From Glossina fuscipes (taxonomy: Eukaryota; Arthropoda; Insecta; Diptera; Glossinidae): 64,000 nt of DNA. The position numbers and the translations under genes were made by a program. The notes beneath the pieces are model-generated. The model had not been told where the DNA came from, made no database searches, and was given only the letters and a program-made list of their open reading frames with translations. Numbering within the stretch: position 1 is the stretch's first letter; every line of letters begins with the position of its first letter. Location: the NCBI RefSeq assembly GCF_014805625.2, contig NW_023998414.1:4141157-4205156 (forward strand), in the 5' to 3' direction. Of this stretch, positions 167-27,122 are shown piece by piece.

Positions 167-615
167 AATTAAATTTATTCCTATTTATTCTCTGTTGTGC
201 CATATTCCTACAAACAACGGAAGCCATACCGGTAGCAGTGCCAGTACCGATACCAATACCTGTTGCTGTACTTCATGGTACTTCGAATTCTGGTCACCAT
301 ATTATATTACAAACGCCTGTTTATTGGCCCCGTTATTATCAGACGACATTACAAGTTACCCAGCCGCAACAACAACAACAACAACAACAACAACATCAAC
401 AGTTACAACAGCAACAACAAAAACAACAACAACAACAGCCTTTAACGCAGCATCATATTATCTTTCATCATCATTTGCAATATCATCATTTGCATCAACG
501 CGCCGTTAATAATCCGGACAAAATGAATTATTGCACCGATGAAATGATTTTTAAGAATATACGTAAACAAATGGGTTCATCTCTGCAATACATTAGAAAT
601 CTATTCGATGAATAT
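167..615 (+). other. Gene 1 coding exon: signal peptide, poly-Q/His-rich region, first helix
   Basis: The acceptor AG is at 165-166 and the donor is a perfect GTAAGT at 616-621. The exon begins with two bases that finish a codon opened in the off-window exon (phase 1) and ends after a complete Tyr codon (phase 0). The Gln run is made of CAA/CAG codons, and triplet slippage in this block also keeps the other two frames open, so those are not genes. The last 31 residues form a likely amphipathic helix containing C122. Confidence 0.72.
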
Positions 616-2352
616 GTAAGTATTACACTGTACGTTGTATTCCTCTCTACGAATTAATACAAATTTATTTTGCCTTTATTGAGAGCATAGAGATGAGTAA
701 TTGAGTAGCAGTAATTAACTCTCATCTCTTATTTACATAAATTGCTTTAGCTAGCGCCTGTGTTATGCTTGCAATGAATGCTGGCTTTATAGGATTTTCG
801 AAAACTATTCCTTTTAATTTTTTTTTTCCCAAGGGCATGAGGATGAAAGCAAAGGTTTATTATATACATATAAAGAATAACTTTTTCATCAATTGTTGGT
901 TTTTCTGTGGAAAAAATTTGCAATACTTGAATAGTAATTGCTTAAGGGGATTTTCTCTGTGCTTTGAAATTTTAACGAGCGTTTAGAAATACGCGGGTAT
1001 TTCACCTTAAGCACACTCACGATTTTTCCACCCATCATGAACGAAATGCAGATATACTCGTTCTGTGGTTTCGTTTGCAACACTTGAACGACATCCAGTG
1101 AAGATCCACAGTTCCGATAAAATTTAAAGCATATTAAAATATTTAGATGACACTTAGAGATGCATCTTGCTTTGATCACAAAGGCATTGACATTTATATA
1201 AGATCATGAAATATAGAAAGACGCAATATTTTCAAAAATGGAACGATTCATTTGAGTATAATCTGAGTCCTTTAGGCACACGGTCAGCCCTTTTGGCAGT
1301 ATATTGTTGCAACTGTTTATATAACAATAATTAAGACAAAATTAAACGAAATTTTTCCCATACAAGTCTTAAATCGATCAAGTTTGAAGAAGTTCAGTAT
1401 TTTTTCGCTTCAAAATATTACAACAAAAACCAACAATCAATGATAGTAGGCCTTCACGGAAGTCACAATCATTTCTTCATTCGTTCAATATTTATTTGAG
1501 AGCTATCTTCTTCCCATTAGGCTCACTATTTTTTAGATGAACTACATGTATTAATGAATATTAAAAAAAAAAAAAATACCCTCATCACTTGTTTTTTTTT
1601 TTCTTCTATTAACCGATTTTCTATCATTTGTAACATTTCAGTTAAGATCACGTGAAGGCAAAACTTATGAAGAAATGTTGGAATTGTGGAGATTACATGA
1701 TCTGGAAATTCGTTATCCACAACGAAAAGTTATTAAAACGGACAATGAGGTAAACGAGAAACTTTTCTGTTTGTTCTCATCATCCCGCCTTCCTATTTCA
1801 GTTTTTTTCTTTTTTATCTCTCTTTCTCTTTGTCTCATTTCGTCCATCTGTTTCTATCTTCATATGTCCTTTTAAAGATTTATTATATTAATTAATGAAT
1901 ATTTTATGTTAATTTTTTTTTTTTTTTTGTTTTTTTTAACTTAGCTCCATACCGAAGTACTTAAGTTTTATTTAAATCTGCATACGTTCGAGCAGCTAAT
2001 AGCCGATGTTATCGCCGATGTTAATGTAAATAAAACGAATATTGAACATGGTGAAGAGTATTCGGCTAAAAAAATTATACAATTCTTTGATAAACTTAAA
2101 AAAGAAGTCCGTTTTAATATTCAGGAAGCGGAAACTGTATTACAAGATCTCACCATTGAAAAGCCTAACTTGGAGGAGAATATCGTCGATTACAATAAAA
2201 CGGTTAATAGAAATACGCGGGATTTCTTAATAGTTCACAAATTGATTGAAGAAATTAAACATGTTTATGAATTGGTTGAACTATACTGTAACAATAATAA
2301 TAATAATAACAACAACAACAATAACAGTCATAACAGCAACACTGATGAATAG
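167..2352 (+). CDS. Secreted helical cytokine-like protein, diverged Unpaired-type paralog (5'-partial)
   Basis: Exons are 167-615, 1642-1749 and 1945-2352 (stop TAG), giving 320 visible residues after a split first codon. Numbering from the codon at 169: hydrophobic signal-peptide core 1-19 ending TTEA; alternating Pro/Val/Ile/Ala stretch 20-34; Gln-rich run 65-90; His-rich stretch 95-109; predicted amphipathic helices 119-149, 158-170, 186-211, 222-254 and 274-300; Asn run 301-312. N-glycosylation sequons are at N214, N269 and N311. Cysteines in the mature part are C122 and C300. The segment W165-R-L-H and the helices after it align with gene 2 downstream, including the phase-0 intron after residue 185. 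From this I infer an extracellular four-helix ligand of the JAK/STAT (Unpaired) class. The N-terminus, with its ATG, is outside the window. A different secreted helical family is possible, since there is no family-specific residue I can cite from memory. The exon structure is firm; the family call is moderate. Confidence 0.68.
616..1641 (+). other. Gene 1 intron (1026 bp, phase 0)
   Basis: The donor is GTAAGT at 616 and the acceptor is TAACATTTCAG ending at 1641. The intron is AT-rich with an A13 tract near 1563 and a T-rich tract before the acceptor. I see no conserved element or coding potential inside it. Confidence 0.7.
1642..1749 (+). other. Gene 1 coding exon with W-x-L-H core motif
   Basis: This 36-codon exon has phase 0 on both sides. 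It encodes a short charged helix containing ELWRLHDL, which matches EMWWLHHN in the second exon of gene 2. The donor is GAG|GTAAAC at 1750. The reading frame joins cleanly to the exons on either side. Confidence 0.72.
1750..1944 (+). other. Gene 1 intron (195 bp, phase 0)
   Basis: The donor is GTAAAC and the acceptor is a long T tract followed by AACTTAG ending at 1944. It sits about 20 codons after the W-x-L-H motif. The second intron of gene 2 lies 18 codons after the same motif, so this looks like an ancestral shared intron. Confidence 0.7.
1945..2352 (+). other. Gene 1 terminal coding exon
   Basis: A single open frame of 135 codons ends at TAG 2350-2352. It encodes three predicted helices and an acidic/Asn-rich tail. 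LKFYLNLHTF and QEAETVL correspond in order and spacing to LKRWYRNMQT and CELETAV in gene 2, and RDFLIVHKLI corresponds to RFVKFFYYKYL. The Asn run is built from AAC/AAT triplets and probably varies in length. Confidence 0.72.
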
Positions 2353-2487
2353 ATGGCTAAGGGCAAATAAAAAAGAAGCCTAAGAAACATTATTTTAAAT
2401 TATATTAGATAAGTATTAGAAAACCAATCCAATCCATCCCAAAATATTGAAAAAAAAAAAGCTAAATAAATAAATCTATAATAAACC

Positions 2488-2532
<45 letters not shown>

Positions 2533-4260
2533 ATATATATACATATATATACCATGTAATCAACCCGGCAGAGACAAATCGAAAAGATAATATATTTTGT
2601 CTACAATTAAGAAATGTTGATGTTTTAAAGAAATCAAACGCAAATGAATTGCAAAACTGGTTTCATTGTAATACTTAATAATAATAACGATGATTATGTA
2701 CTTGTATTAATAGATATTTATATCCTGAACATAACATATAAACAGGTAACGATTTATACATATAAACTGTTATTCATTTTATGACTACCCACACTATGAA
2801 GCTTCATGCGAACATCACTTAACAAGCATACAAACGTGCAACAAACACCTTAACCCTGCCAATCGTCTAATCTATTCCCAAATCCTCTTAATATCCAGTC
2901 ACTTTTCACCTCTCCATCTACCTATCCTATCGTCTTATATCCAATCAATCATCTTCAACTCCTTTCTATTCTGGTATAATTTCAGCTTCTTATCAACATC
3001 TTTGTAGCGACATAATATCATTTTCATTTGTTGAATCGTCTTCGATTTCATACCTTAAGTCTATTGGCTATCGTCTCGATCATTTCGTTATCCTATTTGC
3101 TCTATCATTCCCACTTTTCTAGTATATCTACCCTTTCCTCATCACCAATGCTCCCCTCGGTTTGTACTTTTTGCCTTATGACGTTTTCGCGTTTTCCACT
3201 GCTTACCTTTTTTCAAAAAACTTAGTTTCTTTTTTTTTTTTTTTTTTTTTGACACATTCTTCTCTTATCTGTACTCTTCATCTCCCGTAATAATAATATA
3301 ATAATTCAAGGTTTTGTGAAATCGCAAAAAAAATAAAAAAAAAATAAATAAAAAAAATATCTCTTCGATACATTCTATGATTTATTTTGTAAATGATATT
3401 TGCATGTTTTCGTCGCGTTCGCTTCCACTCTATATCACTGTCATCTACGTCATCGAATATTAAGTGAACGTAACATAACGAACAGGACTCGTTTTTTATA
3501 TTGTCTTTTACTCCTTCAAGTCACACATGAATAATCACTCATTTATTATTAATCGTACTTAATAATCATTTCGATGAAATACATTCACGTTAATGATATG
3601 ATGATGATAATATTATTAAAAATGTTTATGTTGTCAGCAATTTAAGAATGATCAAACGATTTTGATTAGTGTGTAACAACGATAATTATTATTATTATTA
3701 TTATTATTACAATTATTATTTTTTAATTAGACAGATAAACTATTTAATTTATTGCAATTATTTATATAAAATACTTTAAATTATTTGATTTGAGAGTATA
3801 TTTTTTATTATTATTATTATTATTATTATTTTTATTTTATATCTTGTGTTCTTTTAGCTAAGTTTTTGTTTTCTCCTTAATATTATTTATTTGCCTTCAG
3901 ATAATCGTTAGTTCAATTTTATGAACTTTGCTTAAGAGGCCAATAATTCTACAATATTCGTATAAAAAACACGCGCTTTATTTAATTCTCATCTTTGATT
4001 GAGAATTCCATTTCTATTTAGATTTTTGCATTCATTCCTTCATTCATTCACGCACACATACATTCATTTAATCCATTTTACTATAATAATATTATAATAA
4101 TCTATAAATAATACATATGTCTGTAATAAAACATTGACTAAATACATATTAAGATAACTAAACTAGATATATAAATAGTAAAACAAAACAAAATCACAAC
4201 AACAAAATTTATGATATAATAATAAATAGATCAATAAAAGCATTTAGAAAAGTTTTATTT
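2353..4260 (+). other. Probable 3' UTR of gene 1 with alternative polyadenylation signals
   Basis: The gene has no further coding exon. AATAAA hexamers lie at 2465-2470, 2480-2485 and, more distally, 4221-4226 and 4233-4238. The last is followed by a T/G-rich stretch typical of a cleavage region. Between them are (TA)n at about 2493-2550, ATT triplet runs near 3690 and 3805, and several ATTTA and TTATTTATT-like motifs (for example about 3883-3892) that could act as AU-rich instability elements. In such AT-rich DNA these motifs also occur by chance. Which end is used cannot be decided here. Confidence 0.4.
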
Positions 4261-4294
4261 GTTGTCGTTTCATTTAGCCGCAGTCCGCACCTAT

Positions 4295-4339
<45 letters not shown>

Positions 4340-6165
4340 GCCTTTTATCCTAATCTATTCTTATATAATTAATTATTATGTTAATTATGGTCAGCTTATG
4401 CCCTTGAAGTGTGACGCCTCTCTGCCTTGCATCTGGTTACTTGAATGGATCAATGAATCAATTTACGCCGAAGAAAGGGTCAAATCTTGTGCCTATTTTT
4501 TGATAAGCATAACATTCGATTAGTGTCCGTCTTTCTGTCCTAACGATTGCAAAGCTTGAAATAGGGAGTTCAAAGCTTAGCACTTTTACTTTTTCTTGAT
4601 AAATGAAGATTAAGTTTGAAAGGGGGGTGCAATCTGCCACCAAATAAACAGACAATAATCAAATGATCATGACTTACAATTTATGAATATTCCGCATATA
4701 TTAATTTAAAAATTGTTACAAGCTTTGATAATTAACAAAATTTTCAAGTTTACAAGACGATTTCAGATATCGAATCGATTTATTTTAACTTCATTATGGA
4801 TTCTCCAAGTCAAGTCTCTCTTGCCATATAGCCGACTTGGAGCGCGCAATATTTGATATTCATTCAATATATCGAACCAAGATATGTCGAGATATACAAT
4901 AATGAGCGATGTTAAGCGTAGGTTGCATTCGCCTGATTATGTGCAGTTTTACGCTGAATTTTTAAATATCCATAGATGTATATTAAAAATATTTGTATTT
5001 TCCGCGCTCAATATCTTCCGTTCGCGATATATTTACACATTAATATATTTGCTTATTTGTTTTTGTGTAACATATGTTGCAAGTCTTAACATTTTATAGT
5101 TCAAGTTGAGCAACAGATAGAAGGAAAACGAACTTGAATTGCTTAGGTGGGATACTTACAGATGCTTTTTGCTTGTCGTTGTACACCTTCGACGCGTAAA
5201 ATCGAATTGAGATGAGCTTAGAATTAATTTTGGATTCTTTATGTTTTGCTTGTCCCCTCGGGCAATGCAAAGCATGAAAGCAATACCGTTAGGTTATTTG
5301 AGATGTTTTGCATAACAATAACGGTTGTTTGGATTTATACACGAATAATATACGATATTATAGCGCCTGTGTGAAGTGCTTAAAATAAGCACTTGTAAGG
5401 TTTTTCTTTTTTTTTTTTTTTTTTTTTTTTGGGACTCAAACATATATCGATGGCATTGTTAACAAATTTAAATATGAAAGCTAATTTTTTGCGGTTGTTG
5501 TGAAAGGGTGAAAAAATTTATTGTTATTTATTTAAAAATTTTAAAGAATATGTTACGAATACGCTTGCATTGAATCAAATTAATATTGCGCATGCGTCCT
5601 ATTTTCTTCTTTTTCCCCCCCAAATGAATTCATTTTATGGCCAAGAAGATGTCGTTTCGTTTCTTTGTTAGTCGACTATATATACCTATGTAAATAACGT
5701 CTTATGTATTATTTTTGTTTCGAGTCGTGTTTTTTTTTTTTTTTTTTTTTTGCAATATTTTCTCAATGAAATATTGTTATTTCTGTAGTTTCTCTCACAA
5801 AAGAGAGCATTTGGATATCTCTTTGAGAATTTCATTAATATGAATTTCTCTTGATATGTTCAACAAATATTTATTGTTTATTTGTATGCGTATACATGCT
5901 TGTACAAACAGAATATATGATAATACATATACATATATATATGATTTGATATATAAGCACACATATATAAAGGTAATGAGTGATTTTTTCATATATTAAA
6001 TAATTGACCAATCGTGAACTTCAATTAAACTAATACTAATACAATTTATGCAATCAAGGAACGCCCTCGTGCTTTTATGTGCGTGTGTATATTAAAATGA
6101 AAGAGAAAAGGAGCACGCTCTTAAATTAAATCTCTCTTTAACAATACTCAGCGTTATGCGATTGT

Positions 6166-6205
<40 letters not shown>

Positions 6206-8337
6206 GAAAGTATTTCACAACATCTGATGCTATCCCATTTCGTTGTAAGATAAATTGCATGGGATTTTTTCTCAAACGTATTTCGCAAGGTTTTGATATT
6301 TAAAAGTTACTTAAATTGTATTTACACTGATTTTTATCTGGATTGGAAACTTGCGAGAAAAATCCCCCAACGTTGAGATTCTTGTTGTTTTCTGACGTAA
6401 ACTTTAAGTTATTTATTAATAATAATACATGATTTCTTCATACCCACTAGCAGCCGGTTATATCTACTTCACTATTTCACATTTTTGTAACATAGAGAAA
6501 TACCCATCAAAAACTGCTTATATGCATTCTTGATAAGCGTAAAATTGAATTACGTACGTCTAACAGTCAACTTGTCGCTTGATATGTTTGTGCCATTTTT
6601 CTTTCTCAAATGACGCATTATAAGTAAAATAAAAAAAAAAAATAGAGAGAGTACGTACGTACGTCCTCGTTACATCAAAAAGACCAAAATTCCAATTCCA
6701 CCAATTTTCCATATAAGTCAATTTTTCCAACAAAACTAACCTCCATTAGTTGGTTGATATTCATTATTTTCCGGATTGGATTCGTAATTTGTTAGGTACG
6801 TAGACCAGCTTTATCGACAATATGTCGCTAAATTCGAGATTTTGAGAAATTTGTCGAAAAGTCAAAATTGATGTACGAACGAGTTTGTAATGGCGCGGTG
6901 AGAGAGAGACCGAGAGATACAGAGAGAGCGCTGTCTTCTTTTTGTTTCGCTTCTTGATAAAAATCAGCAAAGAAGAGAAACTAAACTATACGACTTATTC
7001 GATATTTGAAAATATCCTACACCACTTTTCGACATATAAGGATATGTTAACTTTGTGCCAATGCATGCAGTGTTTTAAGGACTTGAGACGAGTTCACCTT
7101 TTGAGCTTGTCTGTCCGTCTGTCCATCTGTAGCTAGTGGTGGGTTACAGCCAATAATTCTTTTTTACTTGTTCTTATAATAAGTTTCTCTTTAAACGCTT
7201 AAGAAATATTTAATATTAAGTCACCATAGCATAGATACAATCGCTTCTTAATTCAAATGATAGCATGTTCTACCCACATTCCATAGAAGTCGATTGCGCA
7301 AATAAAAAAGAGTTATATTCTATTTTGCGGCTAACCTTAGATGCCTACCATTACCTTAAAGAATTTGTCGTTTTCTTACGAATATGTCATTGGGATGATC
7401 GGCGTATTTTCTGTCTTAGATCTAAACAATATCGAACTTAATAATAGATGTAACTTCTTTGATTTCTATTACAAAAAATTCGATCTGCACATGTCGATCA
7501 ACCAGTCCGAAACTATCTAGTCGGTATATATCGGAGCGAATTTCGTATTTCTTTGAATTCCAGCGGCTTGGCCGTTGTTAGGGTTGTTTGTAAATAAATA
7601 CTGCCCATTTTTATGGTTAGTTGGTTTATAAAATCGACTCAAGACTTTTTTTTATAATTTGTTATTAGACTTTTGGTGACTAAGAATACGGACAACAAGC
7701 TCATGGACGGCCAGGACACTAAATTGAATGGGAATATTAAGTTGAAATGACGCGATTACACATGTTTTGCGGGATTTCAAGGACGAATCAAATTTCTATC
7801 ATTTTTATGATACTTATGCGCCTAGAAAACTATATTATAAATTGATAAGACTGAGTTTTGTGACGATCCCGACAATTCTTAAACTGAAGCTATATGGGAG
7901 CATCGCCTTCTCAAAAGTATATATTCTTTCGCGATTAAGTTGTGAATTTTTTTTTTTGCTTCCAACTCACTAATGCGCTATCATTTAGTCAAGGTCTAGT
8001 AAATACTTGGAGTTTTGCAAATTACACAAATTTAATTTTAATATTCAAGATTGATATAAAAAAACGAACAAAGCAATTGGTGAGAGGGATATACTAAAAC
8101 AACCGTAGAGCCAGGTTAAAGATATTTTGACTGTAATATATAGCTGGGTTCAAGTAAACATAATCATGTACATCCATGGAAGCGTTCAAAGATGGTAAAT
8201 TAATTGCAATTAGAGGTAAAACACAATTATATAACTGTAATTATAATATTAGTCAGCGACATCTACTGGCGGAAATGATGAAGTAGTGCGACGACAATCA
8301 GTAATCGGTCCCGTTCGCAGGTTACAAACATTATTAA
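4261..8337. other. Intergenic AT-rich DNA, no gene seen
   Basis: This stretch holds a (TA)n run at 4302-4336, T tracts near 5410 and 5730, a CA/TA compound repeat near 6168-6205, a short ACGT repeat near 6652, and a weak GTCCGTCTGTCC core near 7107. The short ORFs do not resemble proteins and show no codon bias different from the surroundings. I see no promoter or RNA gene. Confidence 0.5.
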
Positions 8338-9010
8338 AACAACTAAGAAGATTATAGTCGGCCTACATAGGCGATTACGTACGTTACACCACTTCGCCCA
8401 CTACAGTTATTCATTCGTTTTGGTAATAATGCACCAGAATCGACCATAATTTTCATGAAAGTTCGCATATTGGAAGTTTGGATCTTCGCTCCGTACAAGG
8501 ATTTGCGTTTCGTGATCGCGCCTATATATGTTAGGGTTCATAAAATAGACCTTTTCGCTCGAACGCTATCATCATAAACTATTAAAAATTAAACCCTTTT
8601 TCGTGGGGTTTACTACTCAGGAGATATCTTATATGGAGTGGGGCCAAGAAATAAACCCATGTGGTTTAAATTAGGTCCAATTAATTTTTTCATTTAATGA
8701 TTGTCATGAGCATATTTTAATCACAAACCTATAACGATTTTTCAAAATAATGTGTTATATGGAGAGTAGTCGAAAAAGTGGACAGGTCCGAGTGATTTGT
8801 AGTAGCGTTCGTCCTTGAAACAAATTATGTAATTGTACCGAATTTCATCAAAATATTTTAAAAATTGTGACTGGTAGCTTGGCCAACAATAGGCAGACGG
8901 ACAGACCGACTTTGATCGTTATAATAAAAGGTGGATTTACCTTAAGGTCTTCAACGTGTTGCATATACCCGCATTAATTTAATACAGCCTGTAGCGCCAA
9001 GTGGTGTAGA
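8338..9010. repeat. Dispersed repeat, family B copy
   Basis: The left end reads AACAACTAAGAAGATTATAG, followed by an imperfect inverted motif (GTCGG...CGAT), and resembles the left ends at 22985 and 24533. The right part (about 8890-8985) has the degenerate 'GCAGACGGACAGACCGAC' core, then a stretch ending GTGTTGCATATA. That stretch matches 23185-23280 and 26085-26175. There is no coding capacity, so this is probably a non-autonomous mobile element remnant. Boundaries are approximate. Confidence 0.5.
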
Positions 9011-10721
9011 GTATAAATAACATAATTATTGATCTTAACGGATCAAAGACCGAGCTATTTAAATCTCCTCGGCATTCTTCAAACGATTAGTTCTTTTTAT
9101 TTATTTATTTAGTTTATTTTTTTTTGGCTTGCATTTACTTCTGACATCGCTGTCGAATGTCATATCACTATCTTCAAAGGGGTCTGTTAAGAGAGATTGA
9201 TAATATCGATCATTAAAAATTGCAATGCCTTGAATTGTGAATTGATCTACAATAATATTATGCGAAGTGGGCGTTCCTAACCTACCAAAAAAAACCGTAT
9301 AATGAGTTTACAACAAATTCTGTTACCTAATTATAATCGATGGATTTAGAAATTTATCGATTATGAAATTGCATGAAGCAGTAAAAAGATGTTTTGGCAC
9401 GCTTCACGGCACCCTTCGGAACATCATCTTATTGATATCATAGATCGTTTATGTATTTAAATCAATTAACCAATTGCGATTATAAACCTCCTGTTAATAT
9501 AGGAGAATATCGCTTAGAATTCTTATTATAAAATTTTCTCGTCTCATTATTTTCGAAAAGTTACGGGCCGAAGATGATAAGTTGGGTAAACAGTTGTGTT
9601 TTTTTTTTTAGTTTGTAAATTTTACCCAATACAACGAGGATGGTGAGCTCAATGGGACAATTATTATAAATAGTTTTTAATTATGTTCGGCCTTTCTGAG
9701 CATAAACTGATCAAGCTTTAACTACGAAACGCTAGCAAACAAGTCTCCTCGCCAAGGACGCTAAAGTATCAAAGTGAGTTTCTAGTTCGTTTGGACGGTT
9801 TGACTTGAAATTTTTAAAACCACGAATAGCTTCAGTTATGAGTATGAATTTTTAAAAACTACTTATTATTCAGTTAAAAAATACATCTGTAATTTTAGTC
9901 AATCCTCGTACATGAATAATTTTATTAATTTCCGATTTAACGCAAATGTTCGCAAATGTTAATATACTTAACACATTGATGCGATAATACGTTGTGAGCA
10001 ATTGTCTTAAGAAGAAGCGTACATGAAAGGGAATAGCTTGCGCTCATTTGTAACTGAGCTGTGAATGATGTTACAAAACGTTAACGTAACCGACATTAAG
10101 TCATCAAAGCAACATCCTTTTAGATCATATTCAACACATCCATCCTAATGGTATATACAAAGTGTAAGTAAGAAGCGAAGGCAATGCAATTAGTTACGCC
10201 AATATCTTGTCGATGTAAACTCGAAAATTGTGTGAGAATGAAAATATTTGTAATATTAAAAACCCAAGCAACAAACATGACTTGGCACTAATTGCAAACA
10301 AAACACAGGAGAAAATAATCTTCTTCTATTTTTTTGCTGCCTTCTTCTTTTTTTTTTTTTTTTTTTATTAACAAAAGACCAACAACATGAGCAGAAAACC
10401 TGTAACTATGGTATCAAAATATTTCGTTCATAACGAATTGGTAAACACAAGGGAAAATTACTGCTGGTTTTCTATACAAACATATGTGGTAACGTGCATG
10501 ACCAATGTTTAGCAACAGCGCATAGACGTTAATATAAGACTATATAGACATTTGTGTCCTGCCGAGTTTGCACTTTTGTATACCGACAGCAGCAGCAGGA
10601 GCTCATCAAGGGCAATCAACCAATGATAGTGTTGTTTGTTATATGGTCGTTTTTTTCGTTTACACCTATACACATAGGCATACATACACACCCACGCACA
10701 TTCATATATACACATATATGT

Positions 10722-10722
10722 G

Positions 10723-10755
<33 letters not shown>

Positions 10756-10783
10756 GCAGAGAGAGAGAGGGAGAGAGAGAGAG
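10722..10783. repeat. (GA)n-rich tract
   Basis: An interrupted GAGA repeat of about 60 bp. GA tracts can bind GAGA factor in flies, but this one lies 7.5 kb upstream of gene 2 and may be only a microsatellite. Confidence 0.8.
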
Positions 10784-11690
10784 GGCGGTAGGTGAAGGGG
10801 ACGGGGAATAAGTGAGACGATTAACTAACCAACTTAAATAAAGAAACTGCAAGTTTTGATATCGTGACCAGGCTGGTCTTGGGGGAATGGGAATGGGGAA
10901 GGGGAATGGGAGGAGGGCAGGAGTATAAGAAATTGAAAAATTTCATTATTGAGTTATTTTGTACTTTCTTTCATGTTCTCTTTGTCCTTGATACGCTACC
11001 TCCGACTCGACCGTAAAATATATTTTCTATTAATTTTCATTATTGTATATGTACACACACCCAGCTTGCTTATTGCAAATAAGACATTCGTTGTCCTTAT
11101 TGTTAGTAAGTCTGCCATTTTATTGCGACAACTGACTGATGTAGCAGCTTGAACGGCCAACATCAAGAAAAATCGCCTGCTGTTAACAATTTTGGGTTCG
11201 AATATATTTTTTTTTTTTTGGTTTTAGGCTTTGGTTTGCTCAATATACATACTCATATACGTATATGTATATGTATATTGTTTACCTATGCATATGATGC
11301 ACATACCTATACATACGATAAATAAAACGGTTGAAAATGTGGACGTGACAAAGATTACCAACAACAAGTTATGCTTTCTATTAGAAAGCAGCCAAATACA
11401 CGCACCAAGCATTCATGTACAATTTAACACAAAGTTGTTTTAATTCAGACAATAGTCGGCAATTAAAATAGTTTTTTTCTTCTATTGTTTCTCGTATCCT
11501 GTGTTAAGTAAAAGAAAATACATAAATTTATTATGTGACACTACATTATTATTACGGTACTTTAAAGACAAAAGATTTGGGAAAATATTCGGATGCTAAG
11601 TATTTTAGAACAAATATTTTCATCTTTTCTCGTCTTCACGAATAATAATGAAATGTTGACTTTTTTCTTAACTCAACTTGCCCATCAATA

Positions 11691-11693
<3 letters not shown>

Positions 11694-11739
<46 letters not shown>
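11694..11739. repeat. (CA)23 microsatellite
   Basis: An uninterrupted CA dinucleotide run, visible directly. It would be a length-polymorphic marker. Confidence 0.95.
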
Positions 11740-11742
<3 letters not shown>

Positions 11743-12846
11743 ACCGGACCACCCAATTTTTAGCTAATGCTAATGACTACGTATCTATCCAAAGGTGTCT
11801 TAATTTTTTTTTGTTTTTTGCTCGTAATCACCTGCTGAGTACTAAAGCAACGCACGCACTATTATTTTGTAACTTTTTCTTTTCTTTTTTTTTACAAATG
11901 TTTATCTATTTATTTTTTTTTATTTTTTATTTATTGCTATTGTTGCTCTAATAGAGTGGTCTTGCAATAGAAAATGAATAAGCTAAATATATGAAAACAA
12001 GAAAACCTTTCGTACTCTCTGAGGGGGAACATCAGTGTAGTAGGCTTAAAAAAGAAAGCATTTTTTGGCATTTTTTTGGCATTTTAATAACCGCATAGCA
12101 ATACACGAGAAAGCTGTAAAACGTACCTGTATTAAAGAAAAAAGTTTTCTTTTAAAAATGGATGGCAACGCATGAGCCATTCACGCGTAGATCTTTAGCT
12201 TACGGAATTCCGCGGCATGTGGTGTAGTTGATGTAAATTGCGACCGATTGTTGTGTGAATAGCGAATATTTCACTTAAAATTCAACTTCATTTTTTAATC
12301 AAAAGGAAACTATCCTTATATAAATATATATATATAATTTAAAACGGAAAGTAAAGATTGCAAATTTTTGGAGTTATACTGCCCGTCATTTTGAAAATTC
12401 ATGTTTCGAAAAAAAACGTCTCTAAAGCTTCAAATACCCATGTATGGCTATACGATTTGCAAATGTGTAGTTTTGACGAAATGAAAGTTTTGCACAATCG
12501 CCTGCCCGATTTTTCATTAGTCTGTCCACCTTTCTATGCAACAGATTGTGCTACAAATTTGGGGATGGATGCGATATTTTAATTTTTCTTTTATTTGCTT
12601 TTGCATAATTTTATAAGAGCCATCTAATAACAACAGATTAGAGGCCGATCGACATGTTTGCAAAGAATATCTTGAATTTTTGACATGGAGATAAGTCAAA
12701 ATTCTCAATTTTTGTACTTTGTCAGACCAGTGTCAAGGTAGGTTGATCTTCCTAGGCAAGGTTCTAAAGTTATATCATCCGTTATTTCGTTACGCTGACT
12801 AAGAATATGTAGCGTATTCAATTTGCACTACCACACGCCACATAAG

Positions 12847-15900: not shown

Positions 15901-17929
15901 TTGGCAGGGTAATCGATAATTGGACTGACATAGGAATATGAATGAACAAAATGAGTATAAAAACTAAACAAACATAATTAAAAATTGAAAAATTTTCCTG
16001 TTACCATTTGTCATGTGTACATGTATGTGTATAAAGTTGAAAGAAAATTACTATATACAAAGTGTGTTGTAAAGAATTTCAGAGAAACAGTACAATTATA
16101 TATTTTTTTAAGGACACGAAAAGCTATCAAAGAAAACCTATTTAATTAGCGTCTTCAAGGCGATTATTGCCGAAATTCTTCATGTACGTAAGGCAACAAA
16201 TCGCTACGTAACGAAGACAAGAAATATTGGCCATCTTCAGGGCGCTCATTAAGCAGTATCAAAGCTATGCAAAAAGAACCTAACAAGCTTAAGCAGGATT
16301 AAACGATCTAGGATAAGATAGAAACGGGTGAATGTGATGAGGCAGAGAGGAATAAATAGCATCAGCATAGAGGAATGAAACAGAATGGAAAAGTATTCAT
16401 TAGTAGATTAATCAATCAATACAATATTGGGTCAAAGAATCGCGATAATTATTAATTAGTCATGCTTTCAATAGAATGAATAAACTTTCACTCGCTGTGC
16501 TTTTCATATTTCGATTTTCGATTATCTAACAGGATCGGGTAATCAATCTCTTCTGTTGCGTGCGGTTTTCGTTAATTCGGCTTATATTCTTGTCTAGTGA
16601 TTATTCCAAGTTCTTCTTAATCATATATCGTTACCGTCGACCTGGTTCAATACTTTACAATTGTAGTATATGTACGTCCTTTCACGTATTACGGTCTGAG
16701 TGATCTGTGCACTACTATCTCTTTTAGAGTTCGTCTTAGAATATTTCTTTCATAGGCAAACCCGCAAAGAACCGCTGTCTCAAGATCGTTCATCATTCTT
16801 CATCCTTATATTGTTGTATTGTAATGTATTTTATGTTTTTATAGAATACATATATATATAACAGAAAAAAAAAAAAAAAATTATTGCAATGAGTAATTTG
16901 CATACACTTGCGAATTGAAGGAGAAAGGATTGCATTACAAAATTTTGGTTGCGTCCAGATTTCTGAGTTAAAAATGCCATTTTTCTACATCAACGTGCCT
17001 ACGCGTATTTGTGCGAGGGATTATGACAAATCAGAAATCATCATCAGTTAACACTCACTCAAGAGAAAAAACTTTTCATTAAACCGAAGGGGTAAATGAG
17101 TGTCAAAATGATAATTGGCAGAGAGTATCGAAACGGGTAAAAGAAAGATAGAAAGGGAGAAATAAGAGAGTGAGAAAGAAAGAGAAAGACAAAGTGAGAG
17201 AGAGAGAGAGAGAGAGAGATGCGAGAAATGAGAAAGATGGCTAAAAAAAGGTAAGGATAGACAAAGAGCATGTATGTATGCCCAAAAAAAAAAAAATAAA
17301 TAAAACGAAGTCCTACAAAAACAATGACGTGTTAACAATGACGATTATGAGTAGTAAACTGTTGCTATTGTTATTAGTGTTGGCGATGTTGTTGTTCTTG
17401 TTGTTAACATTTGTTGGCACCGTTTGTACCCTGTTGTGGCGTTGGCTACAATATAAAAAGCAATAACAACAATTGAAATTAAAACGGAAAATGTTGATCT
17501 CTGGATGGATGTGTATATATGGCTTTTTCTTTGTGTACATGTGTACGAGAAATACGTGAGATGAGCTCAAGCATTTGTCTGCATTACAAATTCCAATACA
17601 TATAAAAAAAAAACAAGTTGTTGTCTGACGCTGAGGAGGAGGAGAGTGTTACAAGGCAAGTAAAAAGCGAAAAAAAGAAACAGCAACAAATGAAAAAAAC
17701 AAAAAAAAAAAAAAAAAAAAAAACCACCACACAAGCGCGAGTGCCTTATGCCGGACAGAGATTTCAGGCAAAGTCTCAACAAAGAAAGGTAGGCAAAATT
17801 AAGGCAGCATACAATTCAGTCAATTGGTTCAATGGTGCGCAACGATATGTAGAGAGTGGAATTTACTTTGCTGTATTATTCCTATGAGAATCGTTTTGAC
17901 CGGCTTTGTGAGAGTAAATTTATTTTTAG
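12902..17929. other. Intergenic DNA upstream of gene 2, no supported gene
   Basis: This segment holds CT repeats near 13550, several poly-A/T tracts and a GA tract near 17198-17218. A 62-codon ORF at 17278-17466 would encode a single Leu-rich membrane segment (LLLLLLVLAMLLFLLL), but it is built largely from TTG/TTA-rich repeats and I cannot support it as a gene. An ORF at 14275-14463 is also unrecognised. Regulatory DNA for gene 2 may lie here, but nothing specific can be proved. Confidence 0.4.
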
Positions 17930-18246
17930 GGTTGGGTTCGAGGGGTCGTTTCAGACTCAGACCGATCGAACTGAATGCGACTACACTCAAACGGCAGCCA
18001 ACAAGCCAAATATTTAAAGTGATTTACTTGCCAACAATACCGCAAAAAGCAAAATGCAACTCAAACATTGCTCAAACTGAGCAAACTGACCGTCTTCATA
18101 TCAAAATGCCATCGCATATAAACAATCAGGCTCAAGCACATGCGCACACTGTACAACGGGACAACAATCACACAACACAACGATAACAATTGTAAATAAC
18201 TGAATTTACAATTTATTGTAATTGATGAATTGTGTAAACAATATAC
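17930..18246 (+). promoter_or_regulatory. Proximal upstream region of gene 2, possible alternative leader
   Basis: This block is less AT-rich than its surroundings and contains two initiator-like TCAGAC motifs (17951 and 17957). The sequence that follows has the character of a fly 5' leader. It also carries an open frame up to 18186 with no recognisable product. It may be a transcribed leader or proximal promoter DNA. No TATA box or good DPE accompanies these motifs, so the site at 18280 is preferred. Confidence 0.2.
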
Positions 18247-18312
18247 TATATAAATAATATTGGCATTCCATAAACTATCAGACGTAATGAAATAAGAAAA
18301 CAGTCAAGATTA
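18247..18312 (+). promoter_or_regulatory. Candidate core promoter of gene 2 (TATA, Inr, DPE-like)
   Basis: TATATAAA is at 18247-18254, an initiator-like TCAGAC lies at 18278-18283 with A+1 at 18280, and AGATT at 18307-18311 falls at +28 to +32, where a DPE (RGWYV) is expected. The TATAAA at 18249 is at -31. The spacing is correct for a Drosophila-type core promoter. AT richness makes chance TATA boxes common, so the triple arrangement is the main support. The implied 5' UTR is about 370 nt, A-rich, with a (TA)n run and short upstream ATGs. Confidence 0.4.
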
Positions 18313-18508
18313 ACAAAACAAAAAAAAAAAAAAATTAAAAAATTAAAAAAAAAAAATAAAAATAAAAATAAAAAAAACACATCAAGAAAATATGAAAAAA
18401 GAAAATAATTCGCAATTAACTTAAGCTGCCATTAAGATTGATTGTTTAAAAAAAACAATTACAATACAAATCTTACTTATGCATACATTTATTTAAAAGA
18501 CATTAATC

Positions 18509-18550
<42 letters not shown>

Positions 18551-18649
18551 ATATAAAATTAGATACGCGAAGTGTTGAAAGGATTTGAAAGGAAATTTTT
18601 GTAAAATCGTTTTTCGCGTGCGAACGTTAATGTAATCCCGTCAAGAAAG

Positions 18650-19048
18650 ATGCATTCAAGGCTTCGCTATTTTGTGTTTGTCATCGCACTATTCATAGAA
18701 TGGATGATAATGGTGGTAGATTGTAATACAGCCCTTCGAACAGTGCATATTAGTGCTAAAAGTACGCTTCAACTTAATGCCGACGCATTATTCATTAAGC
18801 GTTATAACTCCACCTCTTCGCCGGTGTTTGAGTCAACAACGGCAACGTCGTTATCATTATCATCAAGCACCTTAAGTTTAACTAGTTTGCGTTGGCGTAA
18901 AAGGCATCGTAAACGCCATAGCATTTGGTATGATTACAATAATTATAATGAAAACAGCACCACGTTGGAATGGGCAAATCCATGTGGCGGTTTCTACGAT
19001 CCAAATGCCAAGCAATCACATAAACCTAATAAACGGAAACAACTAAAG
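18650..19048 (+). other. Gene 2 coding exon 1
   Basis: 133 codons from ATG to AAG|GTACAT (donor at 19049). The exon encodes the signal peptide, the Ser/Thr-rich segment, the polybasic cluster and the NPCGG motif, so most of the non-helical N-terminal region lies in this exon. Confidence 0.72.
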
Positions 19049-22000
19049 GTACATTTTGCACATTTTTCCCTTCCCTACTTGCATTTTTCCTTTGCTTTTT
19101 CAAATATTTTTATAAGTAAATCAAAGAATGGCTAAAGCATAGCATGGCATAACAGCTTAACTCGAGATATACCAAATTGACTTTGTTTTTCATCTCCTAA
19201 CGCTGTGACACCTAATTAATACGTTACACTATAATAAAGAACAGCAGCAATAAACAGCAAAAATAAAGTAATCGTCTAAGGGATGTTTCGCTTTACTAAG
19301 CCTTAAATTTTTAACTAATGAGGCTCGCGATTGAATTGAGGACAATTTTAATAGTTTTTGCAATGCAACCACCTTTGCTTATATCATAAATATTACGTTA
19401 AGTGAGAATGTTGCTCGATTCAAGTGTTGCCCGTTTGCCTTTGAGCTGATAATTGATTTCCTTAGGCCATAGAAAGTAGAATCAATTTTAACTTGAAATT
19501 TATTACTCGGGTTTATATTAATTTAGCTTTAGACTCCTTTTTATCCGATCACAAGCCAGCACTTTATACGCTACTTTTCACTGGACTGACAATTGAGATC
19601 AACCTGCGCGATCATTGAAGATAAGCAAACTGCTTTTAACTTAGTTCCCGTCGATTAGATTTATTTTTTCCAAACATCATTTCATTGTGTTCGACTTCAT
19701 TCTAGTCGCGTTTCCAGATTAACAAATATTTAAACAATTTTTCAATTTTTTTTTTTTTAGTTAAATGCCTTTAATAAAATAAATTAAAAAGAAAGGAATA
19801 AAACCAATTTTTCTCAACATGCAACTATGCAACGAGGTATATTAACCAATCATATTCGTGTGTGATCATTATCATGTAGGGTGAAACCTTGAATTGCGTT
19901 GGCATTAAAAGCCTATCGCTTACGACATTTTCTCCGCCCTATTCCACGCTGTATTTGCAACCAATACCCAATACGTCGTGAATTTTTTTAAGATAAAAGA
20001 TTCTAGCAAGATGTACCGAGATACGCGTCTCCATCCGTAGCATTCATATAGAATGTTACGATTCCAAAAGAATAGAAATAAAGTGTTGTATCGATTTCCA
20101 AAGAATCAATTATATGTTTTACCACAATTATGATTGAGAAATTGAAACGATTTCGGACCAGAGCTTAGGAACTTGAACATGCTTTTGTTATTAAGTTAAG
20201 ATTTATGTGGCAAATATTGGTGTGAAGTTTAATGTAAATATTTTTTACATCGAGTTGACTTTCACTCCACTAACATATCTCACATAGATCATATATTGTC
20301 CATTCATCCGTTCGTCATCTAAACTCCTAACGTCGGTCATATTAATTTGGAAAATTGAAATTTAATACACATGGCATTAAATTAAGCTCACGGATTGTTG
20401 GGGTGAAAAAGAATCCTGTTCACCTACAAATACACTCAAACTTAAGATGACAATTTTGAAATATTGCTATTAATATCATAATAATATAAATCGGATAAAG
20501 ATGTGAAATTTCTTACATACATTGCTTAGGCATGCAATTAAAGAATTAATTAAACAATTAAAGGAACAACCTTTGAACTTCTCATAAAGTGTTGTTGATA
20601 GTACAAAAAGCACTGTGTTCTTCAAAGATCATAATATATTCAATACGCTCAACTTTTCTTTATTAGTCTTTTTTTATACGCGCCATTGAAGGAAGAGGAA
20701 TATATTTATATTGTCAAAATGTTCGCAACGCCCAGAAGGAAGCTTTAGAGACCCCATTAAGTATATACATTCTTGATCAGAATCATATACTGAATCGATC
20801 TAGAGGTGTCCATCTGTCCGTTTGTTTAATGTCTGTTGTAAACATTATCCTAAATTCGGCAGAAACATTGAAAATTCTTGCACACAGATTGGTATTAAAA
20901 TCGATTGAAGAGTACACCTGCAATACTGCGTAAACTGAGGAAGCCGCGGTTTTTCAAAAGGAATAAGAAATTCTTTTCTTCTCATTATTCATTCATAAAT
21001 CTACAATAATTTGCCTGTATATTCTATAGGCGATACTGTAGTACCCGCATAAAAAGAAGGCAATCGCGCAGGAAGGCACAAGCCTCAAAAACCTCATAAA
21101 ATATACAAATTCTTGGCAAGTTTCAAATCCGGAATGTACTTAAGCATATCCCAAACTTTTCAAAGAATCCGTCCACCACGCCCACACGTCTATCTTACAA
21201 AATGTGTGAGCACCTGTGTTGACCATGGTTTTGTTTGGCTTGCTACTCATAGAGCACAGCACGTACACCATATAACTTTCCACTCTCATTTTGAAAATAG
21301 AAAAAATCAGTTATGTCCATCTAATACTATAGAGTATGGAAATGTAGTTCTTTCTCTCTTTTTTTTTTTTTTTGGGCTTTTTTATGATATAATGAATGGG
21401 TATAAGAATCCTACTTGTTCTTTTCGTCTTCTTAACTTGCTCGGGGTATCACTGAATAACAAGTTTTCCCAAAAATATTTTGCGAAAAGAACTTTAGTCT
21501 TTTTAAACAATGGCGCTATTTAAAGCTGTTTGATGTGTTCAAAATAAATCAAAATTGAATTTCAATGTTCGTGTATCATGCTTGTTTGCAAATGCTGCTC
21601 AATAACTGTTATTATAATTATATTAATAATAGTATTAATTGCTTTAATAGTATTACAAAATTTAATTGATTTGCATACATTTTCTTATTACCGTCAATAG
21701 GTATTACGATAATTGCTTTGATTTAATGCCTCAGATAAATCACAACAAAACAGAATTCCATTGTCGTTCATAATAATAAAAAGAAAAAAAAAAAAAAAAT
21801 TAATAACGCAAGTAAATCGATTATACTTTACTTTGATCACCACAGTATTAGCTGCGAGAGCTATTGATGACATATATATATATATATTTAAAACTCGCAT
21901 CATAAATAAAGAGAAAGTTAAAATATGTATTAATGATGAATGGTTTTCGTTTAGTCTCAATCTACTTTAGTCTATACTCTATAAGTCTTTTACTAACAGT

Positions 22001-25000
22001 CAGTCATCATAAACACAAAACACACAACACCGCTATTTAGATATTCTTGAAAATAAAGTATGAAAATGGACGCCGTCGTAATGTCCAAGTTGAGGAGTTC
22101 TCGATGTTTGCAAAAATATATACATTATCTATAGAAGTTGTTTGCTAGTGTAAAAAAAATTGACTTCTCCAATTACCACTCGTATTATCAGTGGATATAT
22201 CAATTCTCTTTAGAAAAAGAAAAACAAAAAAACAAAAACGATATTTACTAACAACATACCAAACAAGTTAGGTTAGGCCGTTTGCCTAGTTTGCCTAAGA
22301 ATGTCATAATCCATCTTTCAAGTATGTAGAATTTATTTACAATATCTATTCAAAATAACTTAGATTGGATTCCAATATCCCGGAAAAGTTGTAGTGAAAC
22401 TTCAGCGAGATCCAAGGGCGGCTCAAAAAGTTTTGCAATACAGAAAATATTATTAAGCCATAGCGAAATATGATCTATTTGCTATTACGTAATAGATAAA
22501 AAATATTATCATAAACATGTAAATTCACTGTTTACGTTGATGCAACCATTCGTACATTCATTTATATACGAACATTAGCAAAGAGAATCCGGGCTAACTA
22601 AGTCAGCAAATGTAAACAAAATTTTATGCTTAAGAGCGCTTGGGATAAATAGTAAATTGATATTTAAACCTACCATTTTCCCTTATCAGTTAACCCTATC
22701 AGATCAGATCAGATCAGATCAAATCAAATCAAATCGGTCAGATTAACTTAATTAATTTTTTTCATGTGATCATGTGTACACTTAAACATTGTTTATGCAA
22801 TGTCTTCTCCATGTCTCCTTCTATTGTCAAAGTATTATAGCGTCCTTGATTTTATTTAAAGATGTCAGTGAAAAGGAATTCGAGTCAACGATGTTTCCTA
22901 TAGTTCCGACCTTCTTTTTCAAAAGTTTAATATAGTCTTAAACGAGTAGGTAGCTTGCTTTTTACTTTACATTACGTAAATTAAAACAAGTAAAAAGCCT
23001 ACAATGGCCAACGGTCTACTATTAAATAGCCTACATCACCCTGCCCTGCATATATGTTGGTCGCATGACGAATTTCAAAATATGACTTCGAAAACGTGAG
23101 CCCTTCCGACCAACCATTTACGCTTGGGCGTTTATTCTTTGGGCCAAAATGCTCCGATTTTGCACACAAGAAAACATGCTCGACAGGACAAGCTTAGATC
23201 GATACAGAAAGCGGAACTACATCGATCGCAAGTCCTTCAGGGTGTTGTATATAGTCGCACAAGCTTAATACATGGTCCAGGTCATAAAAAAGTTTAATTA
23301 TGCCTTTAAGCTTACGTTTTCCGATATTTTTGTATTTAAAAGTTTTTCAAAACCTATTCTTATTACTAAATCCAAATGCAAAGCCAATGGGGCAAGTAAA
23401 GAGTACAAGTTCGCTTGTTTGGTTTGTGTCGAGGGCAGGAAACATACATTTTCGCACAGCTGGATCAAATTCATCTCAATTTCTTTTATTGAGTAAATTA
23501 TTTTCATTTTATGTATATTTTTTGTCTTATTATCTATTATTGTTATAATATAAATTTTGTTTTTGTTGTTTTTGCTTTTTTACAGATTTATAGTATTTTA
23601 AAGAGATCAGCTAATAATGATTATAAGACTTTAATGGGTAGTCGCCAGCAAGATATTGATATTAGCAACATTGAAATGTGGTGGCTCCATCATAATACCT
23701 ATAAATTTCTACCAAAGTTGAAAATGAACTCAAGCGTAAGTATTTTTCAAAATGCATATATATGTATATATATATATCTAAATATAAGAAAATTATTCAT
23801 CTTCATGAATAATGAAACGAAAAAAAAAAAATATTTTAATAATAAAAGCTATTTTGATAGATTTAGTGCACAGTGCGTACGAAGTCTACTTAAACGAATT
23901 CAATCGAAACTGTATAGCATTTCTCGTGCATGATTCTTTGATCGATCAAACAACTTGAATTTATATATATGTATACATATATATCAAGTGGATGCACTGC
24001 CGATTTCGTTATCTGCCTGGAAATTATTAAGTGGAAACACTCTTAAGTCTCTCAGCTAGGCATCCAATATCCTAATAATCTTTTATGTTCTTTCATTATA
24101 TATTTTAGTACTGGAAACACAACAAAATATTCTTTCATTCTATTCCATTATGACAAAACGTCTAAGGCCTTGTTCATGCTTTTTATCTCATATTCAAATT
24201 TTTTTTTTTTACCCTACCTTAAACTAAAATGTCCTCTGCTCAGTGTCCTTGCACTTGAAGATGTTAGGTCATTTTTGCCCCCTTATCTCTAAGAGGAATA
24301 ACAACTTTTATTATATTATTATTATATTATAAGTCAACAGGTAAAAAGAATGTTTTCACCTGCCAAATCAAGTACTCTTTCAGCGTTGATAGTAATATTT
24401 TTCTAAAAATTTACTCTGCAGTCGTGCAGGTTCTCATTCTCTCTTTCTCTTGTCATTTACTCGCAACCCTTGCTATTCATCTAACGCTTTAGTTAGTATT
24501 TATGTTAAAATCTTTCGCGAATAGCAGGAGAGGAAATGAGTAAACGCATCATAGTTGGGGAAAGCCGGCTATTAAATACCCTACGCCATTTTACCTTACA
24601 CAATTAGATTTGCTACCATTTAGGAGCTTATTTTTCATGAGAGTCCTTAGACGAGGTGCGAGGTTATCTAACTATATTTGCCATAAAAATAATAACTTTT
24701 TCTGCGAATCCTTTTATCGAGTCGAATGCAAAGACGATCAACTTCGGGACCCAAATTTACAGTTCAGTTAATTTTTTCTCTTGGTCATATAAACTGTCAC
24801 CTTTCATAGACACGATTATATGTGAGCGGATTCAAAAAGCAAGTAAGTCCATCCGATTCAAATTTCTCACATCTTTTCATAAAGAAATTTTGAAATTTGT
24901 AAATTATTTTCGTGTAACGGTTTTCGAGCGATCGTAAAAGTACTCTAATCCAAACTCGATTATCAAAACCATGCGTCCTTGGTGAAATGTAGCAAAAATT

Positions 25001-25143
25001 GCGATCTTTATGTCGTATACAAAAGTATACATATGGAGATACATCAGTCACTCAGTCATGGACAGATAAGCTTGAATCAGGAGTCAGAAAATGATTTTGC
25101 ATCTATAAGCGTTGTAGGTTTTAATTAGTAAATAATGAATTCG

Positions 25144-25183
<40 letters not shown>

Positions 25184-27122
25184 CGATAAATATTTATATT
25201 AAATTTTATACAAAATATTTGCTATTAAAAGATGTTTTGCTGGAAGAAAAATATTGAAAAGCTTTTAATTAGATTTAAGAATCAGTCAGTCATTGAGGGC
25301 TCTTTGAACTGTTGTTAATAGATATTGGCTCTGCTGCCATGCGTGAAGCATTTAAGTCAACTATGAAATCAACTATGAAAGGCATGTTACCCCACAGTTT
25401 TTATAATCGTAGGTGGTAATAAGAAGAGCGACGAACATGAATTGTTGAAAAATACCGCATATTGGCAAGAAGGAAACACTCCGATTAGACGGGATAGGAA
25501 ATATGGTGATGTTGTCTTCGTCAGTCCATTGTTTATACAGCTTGTCTGTCCATTTGTCTTTTTTGCTTTCAGGTCATCAGGTCACTTGTTTTGGCCCAAC
25601 GAAAACGATTCTATTCCGACCACTGCCAATATAAGGCCTTAGTTTGAAAAGTCGCTAGATGAAAGCAACTGGCGTAGGGCACTTAATGGTGGGCCGTGTC
25701 CCATTACAGTCTTTCTATTTGTTTTATTTTTGTTTTACTGTTTGAGTACCGCTCATCCCTGAGTTTGGCAGCACGATGTTCCGCATAGTTTAACTCTACA
25801 AGACTGCTGTCTTGCGCTCGTGTGCGTCATATGCCGCATGCACATATGATGTAAATAAATAATAAACGTAACGCGACGTTTTTCAATTAACGACGTTTTC
25901 AATAAAAATGCAGAGCAATGTTTAACTTTGACTTTTGTCTTACTTCGTCGCAAAAGTAGTTACCTTAAATCCATTTTCAATAACGTCCGGGCTGAGAGTC
26001 GTCGTAAAAGTCGTCAGTGCAAGTAAATTTCGTTAAAATATTTCGAATATTTCGACCTATTTGGATAGACATCAGAAGGCTGGACAGGCGGACAAGCTTA
26101 AATGATTCTGAATCGATCAGTATAATGAAAGGTGCATTCACCTCAGGCCCTTCGGGGTGTTCCATACATCCAGATAAACAAGATGTATGTAGTTTATAAG
26201 AAGGAAAGGTGAGACCTAAGACTATGCTATGGACAAAATGTAAATGAAATGTTAAAGTCGTAATTGGGCTTTTAATTGACGAATAGATGAACGGTTTGTG
26301 TTCTAAAGAAACAAAAAGGCTTTAAATTATTCAAATATCGCAAATATCGACATTGCAGTAAGAAAGCATCGATTAATGAGTCAATTAAACGGTGATTAGT
26401 GAAAGAAGAATTCTGTAAATTGAATTTTTTTTAAGAAATGATTCATAAATGAGAAATGTCTACCTTCATCACGTTATACACACATTAAATTATATTATAA
26501 TATATAAGAATTGTATTCGATTAATTTAAGCGAAAAATATTTTTCATCTTATTCTTGTTTATAGATTGCTTTGAAACGTTGGTATCGTAATATGCAAACG
26601 TATGTAGCATCGTTCGGTTACCTAAGACGAATACAATTGAAATTCGATCATACAAAATCCCAAGGCGAAAGCAGTACAGCACGTGAACTAAAGGAATTAC
26701 TAAAAAGTTCACGGAATATGTTATGCGAACTGGAGACGGCTGTTAACGGCACTCAATCGTTTAAAGGCTATCGCTTTCGTAAACAATTACCGCAAGTAAG
26801 CCGCTCGCAAATGAACAAACGTTTAAAATTGCGAACTAAACAGCAACTTGATCGCAATCCGACTGATATACAGCGAGCTGATTCAATCGATTTACGTTTC
26901 GTAAAATTCTTTTATTATAAATATTTGAAAAATATGTGCAAATTATTGCGCGAATATATTAAAAATAAAGACAAACTTGAAAGGGGTCCATCGCGTCGTG
27001 CCTTTAATGAAGTGGACAAACCGATGAAACGTTTAAGGAAAAATAGACACTCACTTAACATGGATCGTATATCCCGTGTAAAAAAGAATAAAAATCTAAG
27101 AATTATATCCAATCTTGTGTAG
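18650..27122 (+). CDS. Unpaired-type secreted helical cytokine (JAK/STAT ligand), three exons, 368 aa
   Basis: Exons are 18650-19048, 23586-23735 and 26565-27122 (stop TAG), both introns in phase 0. The start ATG has A at -3 and opens a signal peptide (hydrophobic core about 7-23). Then come a Ser/Thr-rich region, a polybasic cluster RWRKRHRKR at 81-89 (possible proprotein-convertase site), and a WANPCGG motif at 108-114. The helical domain spans about 134-320: E-M-W-W-L-H at 163-168, a helix at 186-210, a helix with C237 in LCELETAV, a basic linker and a helix at 290-316 with C308. The tail is Lys/Arg-rich. Sequons are at N53, N102, N181 and N244. Mature cysteines are C112, C237 and C308. 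Length, secretion, basic charge and helix pattern fit the fly Unpaired family (about 400 residues), ligands of the Domeless receptor. The family call is inference; the exon model is strong. I cannot say which of upd1, upd2 or upd3 it matches, though the signal peptide argues against the signal-less Drosophila upd2 form. Confidence 0.72.
20650..20850 (+). repeat. Dispersed repeat, family A copy
   Basis: In order it carries AACGCCCAGAAGGAAGC, a segment ending ATTCTTGATCAGAATCAT, GAATCGATCTAGAGGTGTCC, the ATCTGTCCGTTTG core and TGTCTGTTGTAAAC. These blocks recur in the same order in other copies, or reversed at 29500-29720 and 62320-62507. The copy is non-coding and diverged. Confidence 0.55.
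21030..21175 (+). repeat. Dispersed repeat, family A, truncated copy
   Basis: CACAAGCCTCAAAAACCTCATAAAATATACAAATTCTTGGCAAGTTTCAAATCCGGAATG follows the same layout as 52990-53060 (ACAACACCC...TATAAATTCTTGGGTAGTTTCAAAATCGGAAT). It lacks the GTCCGTC core. The motif is given here as description of the repeat only, and an overlapping ORF is not a gene. Confidence 0.45.
22699..22736. repeat. Pentanucleotide repeat AGATC/AAATC
   Basis: Four or so copies of CAGAT grade into CAAAT copies, showing a point change spread through part of the array. It lies within gene 2 intron 1. Confidence 0.85.
22985..23285. repeat. Dispersed repeat, family B copy
   Basis: It begins AACAAGTAAAAAGCCTAC and carries a CTACATCACCCTGCC block. 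The right part reads GACAGGACAAGCTTAGATCG and ends near GTGTTGTATATAGTCGCAC. The head matches 8338 and 24533; the tail matches 8890-8985 and 26085-26175. Confidence 0.5.
23586..23735 (+). other. Gene 2 coding exon 2 with W-W-L-H core
   Basis: 50 codons, phase 0 on both sides, with a perfect GTAAGT donor at 23736. The W-W-L-H motif at residues 165-168 matches W-R-L-H of gene 1. A glycosylation sequon (N-S-S) ends the exon. Confidence 0.72.
24533..25110. repeat. Dispersed repeat, family B, diverged copy
   Basis: The left end (GAAATGAGTAAACGCATCATAG, then TTGGGG...TTAAATACCCTACGCC) resembles the heads at 8338 and 22985. The right end (GACAGATAAGCTTGAATCAG, then AAAATGATTTTGCATC) resembles the GGACAAGCTTAAATGATTCTG block at 26090. 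Boundaries are approximate. Confidence 0.4.
26075..26185. repeat. Dispersed repeat, family B right-end fragment
   Basis: GGACAGGCGGACAAGCTTAA is followed by GATTCTGAATCGATCAG, a block with AAAGGTGCATTCACCTCAGG and CTTCGGGGTGTTCCATA. The same order is present at 8890-8985 (AAAAGGTGGATTTACCTTAAGG, CTTCAACGTGTTGCATA). Confidence 0.5.
26565..27122 (+). other. Gene 2 terminal coding exon
   Basis: 185 codons plus TAG. It carries the helices after the W-W-L-H motif, both C237 and C308, and a long basic tail. It opens with IALKRWYRNM, in the position where gene 1 has TEVLKFYLNL. It is the longest clean open frame in the window, and there is no frame disruption. Confidence 0.75.

Follow-up and report, generated by a model that had tools for sequence, protein, structure and literature searches.

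In flies, Unpaired (Upd) ligands drive Janus kinase/signal transducer and activator of transcription (JAK/STAT) signalling during development, in the repair of the gut and in immunity. According to a passage of PMC5963806, Drosophila has three upd genes, upd3 being located near upd1. A passage of a 2011 survey (PMC3130749) describes Unpaired as rapidly evolving and "not conserved outside of Drosophila"; our protein searches found Unpaired proteins in tephritid, stalk-eyed, house, stable, blow and tsetse flies. We analysed a stretch of 64,000 nucleotides from the tsetse fly Glossina fuscipes (contig NW_023998414.1, positions 4,141,157 to 4,205,156; hereafter the window), in which a preliminary description had recognised a tandem pair of Unpaired-like cytokine genes, the first of them (gene 1) strongly diverged. 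We identify the second (gene 2) as upd1. Gene 1, which stands beside it in the tsetse Unpaired locus, is probably a very strongly diverged cytokine of the same family, perhaps upd3.

Gene 2 has three coding exons on the + strand and encodes 368 residues. The first exon (18650..19048) contains a signal peptide, a Ser/Thr-rich part, a basic cluster and E-W-x-N-P-C; the second (23586..23735), most of helix A, W-W-L-H and the AB loop with Y-K-F-L-P; the last (26565..27122, stop codon TAG 27120-27122), helices B (A-L-K-R-W-Y-R-N), C and D and a basic tail. The protein matched the Pfam Unpaired family (PF15972) with 248.1 bits for a cut-off of 27 (E = 1.5e-73). It is 97% identical to the G. morsitans protein P0003 across 95% of the length of gene 2, and 66% identical to "unpaired 1" of Cochliomyia. 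Its predicted structure is a long-chain four-helix cytokine, the fold that had been expected, with CNTF, G-CSF and IL-11 as best matches. When the window was searched with 51 relatives, the sole matches were the three exons of gene 2. Beyond reasonable doubt, gene 2 is the ortholog of unpaired 1/outstretched, an ordinary upd1 that was recognisable already. As a secreted Upd1, its product would bind the gp130-like receptor Domeless and would thereby switch on Hopscotch/Stat92E. The cytokine is preceded by the basic cluster RWRKRHRKRHS (18890-18922), which follows the low-complexity N-terminal part and is absent from gene 1. Proprotein convertases may cut here, or the cluster may contact heparan sulphate. 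An alignment of 38 upd1/upd2-like proteins (A1, from which 13 of 51 proteins were left out; alignment A3 left out one of the 51, P0022) shows four invariant residues in it and two that are almost invariant.

Gene 1 lies upstream in the same orientation, with 16.3 kb between its stop codon and the start of gene 2. It is truncated by the left edge of the window. Its second coding exon (167..615, + strand; open frame, donor GT 616-617) encodes a putative signal peptide, a proline-rich and Gln/His-rich stretch, N-Y-C and most of helix A. This exon starts in phase 1 after its acceptor AG (165-166), and a further exon with the start codon therefore lies left of the window. The hydrophobic leader LNLFLFILCCAIFLQTTEA, recognised by eye in the sequence with the first exon outside the window, is a putative secretion signal. 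The third coding exon (1642..1749, + strand; flanked by splice sites, phase 0 at both ends) contains the end of helix A, a short helix, W-R-L-H and the AB loop. The last one (1945..2352, + strand; stop codon TAG 2350-2352) contains helices B, C and D, as taken from a low-confidence model, a closing cysteine and a poly-Asn tail. GT/AG splice sites are used in both genes, and the last two introns are in phase 0 in each. The anatomy first reported for these two + strand genes, with a hydrophobic leader, a low-complexity N-terminal part, W-x-L-H and helical segments in the same order, can be read from the sequence as described.

We then searched for relatives of gene 1 among proteins. Of 81 candidates, two proved to be relatives with E no higher than 0.01, both from Glossina. 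The core of gene 1 is 99% identical to P0001 of G. morsitans, and P0002 of G. palpalis gambiensis shows 63% identity over 31% of the query, in a match to a piece of the last exon; a clear stretch of 39 residues has 34 identities. The G. morsitans gene models P0001 (gene 1) and P0003 (gene 2) cross the same exon joints as those read here; P0001 is without the signal peptide part of gene 1. In the public model P0002, part of the last exon of gene 1 is joined to a DUF8207-named, retroelement-like protein, so that gene 1 is misannotated in G. palpalis gambiensis. Gene 1 is a real, conserved and unnamed gene, present in two other Glossina species.

The similarity of gene 1 to Unpaired is concentrated around intron 2, which precedes the last coding exon in both genes. 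Gene 1 has this intron in common with the family, together with the surrounding W-x-L-H and Y-x-N-x2-T-F residues. In a comparison with 17 relatives under a lenient gap cost, only 6 of 10,000 shuffles scored as well as the stretch from W-x-L-H to Y-x-N-x2-T-F, and the seven best of 75 control windows all contain this stretch. Across the intron, gene 1 and P0046, a second Unpaired protein of Glossina, have in common W-R-L-H, R-Y, K and then Y-x-N-x2-T-F. Exon 3 of gene 1, anchored at its 3' intron, beat 300 out of 300 shuffles (47 relatives). In a larger run (10 of 49 relatives), 11 of 20,000 shuffles reached its score; the 405 real 36-mers compared, which overlap one another and were partly taken from gene 1 itself, included none that did. 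Most of this score is due to W-x-L-H, since it drops from 18.9 to 3.1 without the motif. The distance from W-x-L-H to intron 2, previously given as identical, is nearly so (15 residues in gene 2 and 17 in gene 1). We also compared the genes segment by segment (15 of 50 aligned relatives, 1000 shuffles per pairing): the W-x-L-H segment was equalled by 2 of 1000 shuffles and helix B by 8 of 1000. Among the helix alignments quoted at the outset, that of helix B was thus recovered and that of helix D was not (183/1000). Helix C as a segment was not recovered either (331/1000), though the best local alignment there is the pairing originally proposed. Around intron 2, these targeted tests speak modestly for paralogy, with the caveat that they are post hoc.

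The predicted structures were also compared. The gene 1 model, built from the single sequence P0001, places helices at residues 7-36, 40-50, 67-100, 106-135 and 156-187, all with low confidence. The same order is found in both models: A, a short helix ending in W-x-L-H, B, C and D. In each, helix B starts within one residue of intron 2. The AB loop counts 30 residues in gene 1 and 32 in gene 2, and the BC turn 5 residues in both, again with low confidence for gene 1. The CD loop is long, with 20 residues in gene 1 versus 43 in gene 2, where it includes two short helices.

Several results weigh against an Unpaired origin of gene 1. It gave no match to Pfam Unpaired at E up to 10 and is not a member of PF15972 by this measure; the family assignment, secured for gene 2, is for gene 1 a plausible and preferred reading. 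BLASTP between the two genes gave E = 0.61, and profile-profile comparison with Unpaired (hhalign) a probability of 0.4%. Against an Unpaired hidden Markov model (HMM) of 54 relatives (out of 58 proteins, without P0001, P0002, P0057 and P0058), gene 1 scored -1.5 bits and its own reverse -0.6; 1518 of the 1947 shuffles reported by hmmsearch, from 2000 made, scored at least as well. Over the whole protein, none of the four methods detected similarity, and the paralogy said to be visible in the sequence is confirmed for the stretch around intron 2 only. With respect to the 38-row alignment, gene 1 is without the invariant helix C cysteine, the K-R-W-Y-R-N motif and the basic cluster. Its whole exon 4 performed no better than its own reverse (20 of 300 shuffles each, 47 relatives); in the same test, the true relative P0046 was reached by 0 of 300 shuffles (z 36.6). 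Helix A was equalled by 84 of 1000 shuffles and, like C and D, showed nothing on the diagonal, while one of 20 wrong pairings, gene 1 helix A with Unpaired helix D, was as good as the true pairs (3/1000). Intron 1 does not correspond: 31 residues separate it from the W in gene 2 and 15 in gene 1, and, relative to helix A, it falls 6 residues after the start in gene 2 and 5 residues short of the end in gene 1. The gene 1 model is poor (mean predicted local distance difference test score, pLDDT, of 51.5), too weak to superpose on cytokines, and its matches in the PDB are mixed helical bundles to which we gave no weight. Finally, the motif regions were chosen post hoc, after the preliminary description had pointed to them, and the shuffle figures are uncorrected for this choice.

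These results would be expected if gene 1 encoded an unrelated secreted helical protein, either restricted to Glossina or changing too rapidly to be traced, whose W-x-L-H and intron agree with upd1 by chance. No ordinary search ties gene 1 to Unpaired, its two relatives are both Glossina proteins, and an off-diagonal helix pair equals the diagonal ones in score. We nevertheless consider this reading the less likely one. Very few shuffles reach the region around intron 2 in either run, the order of helices and the lengths of the AB and BC loops agree between the models, and gene 1 adjoins upd1 in the same orientation with a similar exon plan. Gene 1 had no match to an unrelated family above curated cut-offs; such a match would have spoken against the initial assignment. 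The preferred reading of gene 1 as a diverged Upd implies a second secreted helical protein, which most likely arose from an old tandem duplication of an upd gene. It would have kept the four-helix plan and the region of the AB loop and intron 2, and lost nearly all other recognisable residues.

The cysteines suggest a further difference. The mature gene 1 protein has two only, one in N-Y-C before helix A, the other at the end of helix D or after it. In the Unpaired family, the first place is occupied by N-P-C and the other cysteine lies in helix C. In erythropoietin and interleukin 4, a disulphide connects the beginning of helix A with the end of helix D. Tentatively, gene 1 may be a third tsetse Unpaired, past sequence recognition yet nearly unchanged between close Glossina species, in which the family's likely disulphide from the N-terminal part to helix C was swapped for an A-to-D disulphide of this kind.

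We then considered which Unpaired gene 1 could be. A second gene of Glossina (P0046, P0048, P0049) is clearly an Unpaired too and has relatives in Calliphora (P0055) and Teleopsis (P0054); P0046, P0054 and P0055 match Pfam Unpaired with E from 3.8e-43 to 1.2e-59. The Teleopsis pair LOC119667035 and LOC119667036 have consecutive locus numbers and contigs of equal length, and are therefore probably neighbours. P0046, P0048, P0049 and P0055 share M-A-G-T, at the start of P0048 and P0055 and internally in P0046 and P0049. Their hydrophobic segment lies some 70 residues (Glossina) to 104 residues (Calliphora) beyond this motif, unlike a normal N-terminal signal peptide. This arrangement resembles that of Drosophila Upd2, which has no N-terminal signal peptide. 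To judge from its sequence, close to upd1, and from the long N-terminal stretch that precedes its hydrophobic segment, this second Glossina gene fits upd2 better than gene 1 does. Gene 1 as upd2 is thus very improbable. In favour, Drosophila has three upd genes (a passage of PMC5963806) and gene 1 is not upd1; against, the separate PF15972 gene, with its Teleopsis and Calliphora relatives, takes that place by elimination. With upd1 assigned to gene 2, and provided that the separate gene is upd2, upd3 remains for gene 1. It is the best candidate for tsetse upd3, by position and elimination and not by orthology, and in this role would act on Domeless. No protein named upd2 or upd3 was present among the matches of our protein searches. 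Several Unpaired-domain proteins have been misnamed by automatic annotation in public records, for instance as guanylate cyclase beta (Calliphora), vitellogenin (D. grimshawi) or KIN17-like (D. santomea).

A tsetse "upd3" has been published, GMOY003976, which the relevant passages of PMC5123318 describe as up in infected salivary glands and as assigned via BLASTP with Drosophila proteins. A passage of PMC8166097 reports higher upd3 expression in G. brevipalpis than in G. morsitans. As gene 1 lacks similarity at the BLAST level, it is unlikely to be either of these genes, and the BLASTP approach is unlikely to have found it. If it is an Upd, gene 1 bears on which tsetse gene merits the name upd3. 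The same passages of PMC5123318 report that several JAK/STAT genes change expression in salivary glands with trypanosomes, the authors leaving open whether the pathway controls infection. If gene 1 is an Upd that no profile detects, survey counts of ligands are too low, and gene position combined with intron-anchored motifs can recover such genes. Upd ligands thought to be missing in other insects may then likewise hide beside known genes.

In the rest of the window, the roughly 37 kb past gene 2 (27123-64000) contain no recognised gene among the open reading frames tested: of 18 frames of at least 90 amino acids, 9 were compared with Pfam, none scoring above cut-off. No Rfam match and no tRNA were found across the whole window.

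Compared with Unpaired 1/outstretched of flies (PF15972), gene 2 is alike in its full-length match, landmark motifs, N-P-C and helix C cysteine, with no notable difference. With the long-chain class I cytokines (CNTF, G-CSF, IL-6 and IL-11), sequence identity is about 10%. Gene 1 has none of the PF15972 signatures save W-x-L-H and Y-x-N-x2-T-F around intron 2. The upd2-like P0046 resembles it in W-R-L-H, R-Y, Y-x-N and T-F in the best alignment, but Pfam recognises P0046, P0054 and P0055 at once and not gene 1. Drosophila Upd3, in passages of PMC7378365 and PMC5963806, is helical and encoded near upd1; by description and not by sequence, gene 1 is alike in both respects, its helices being predicted.
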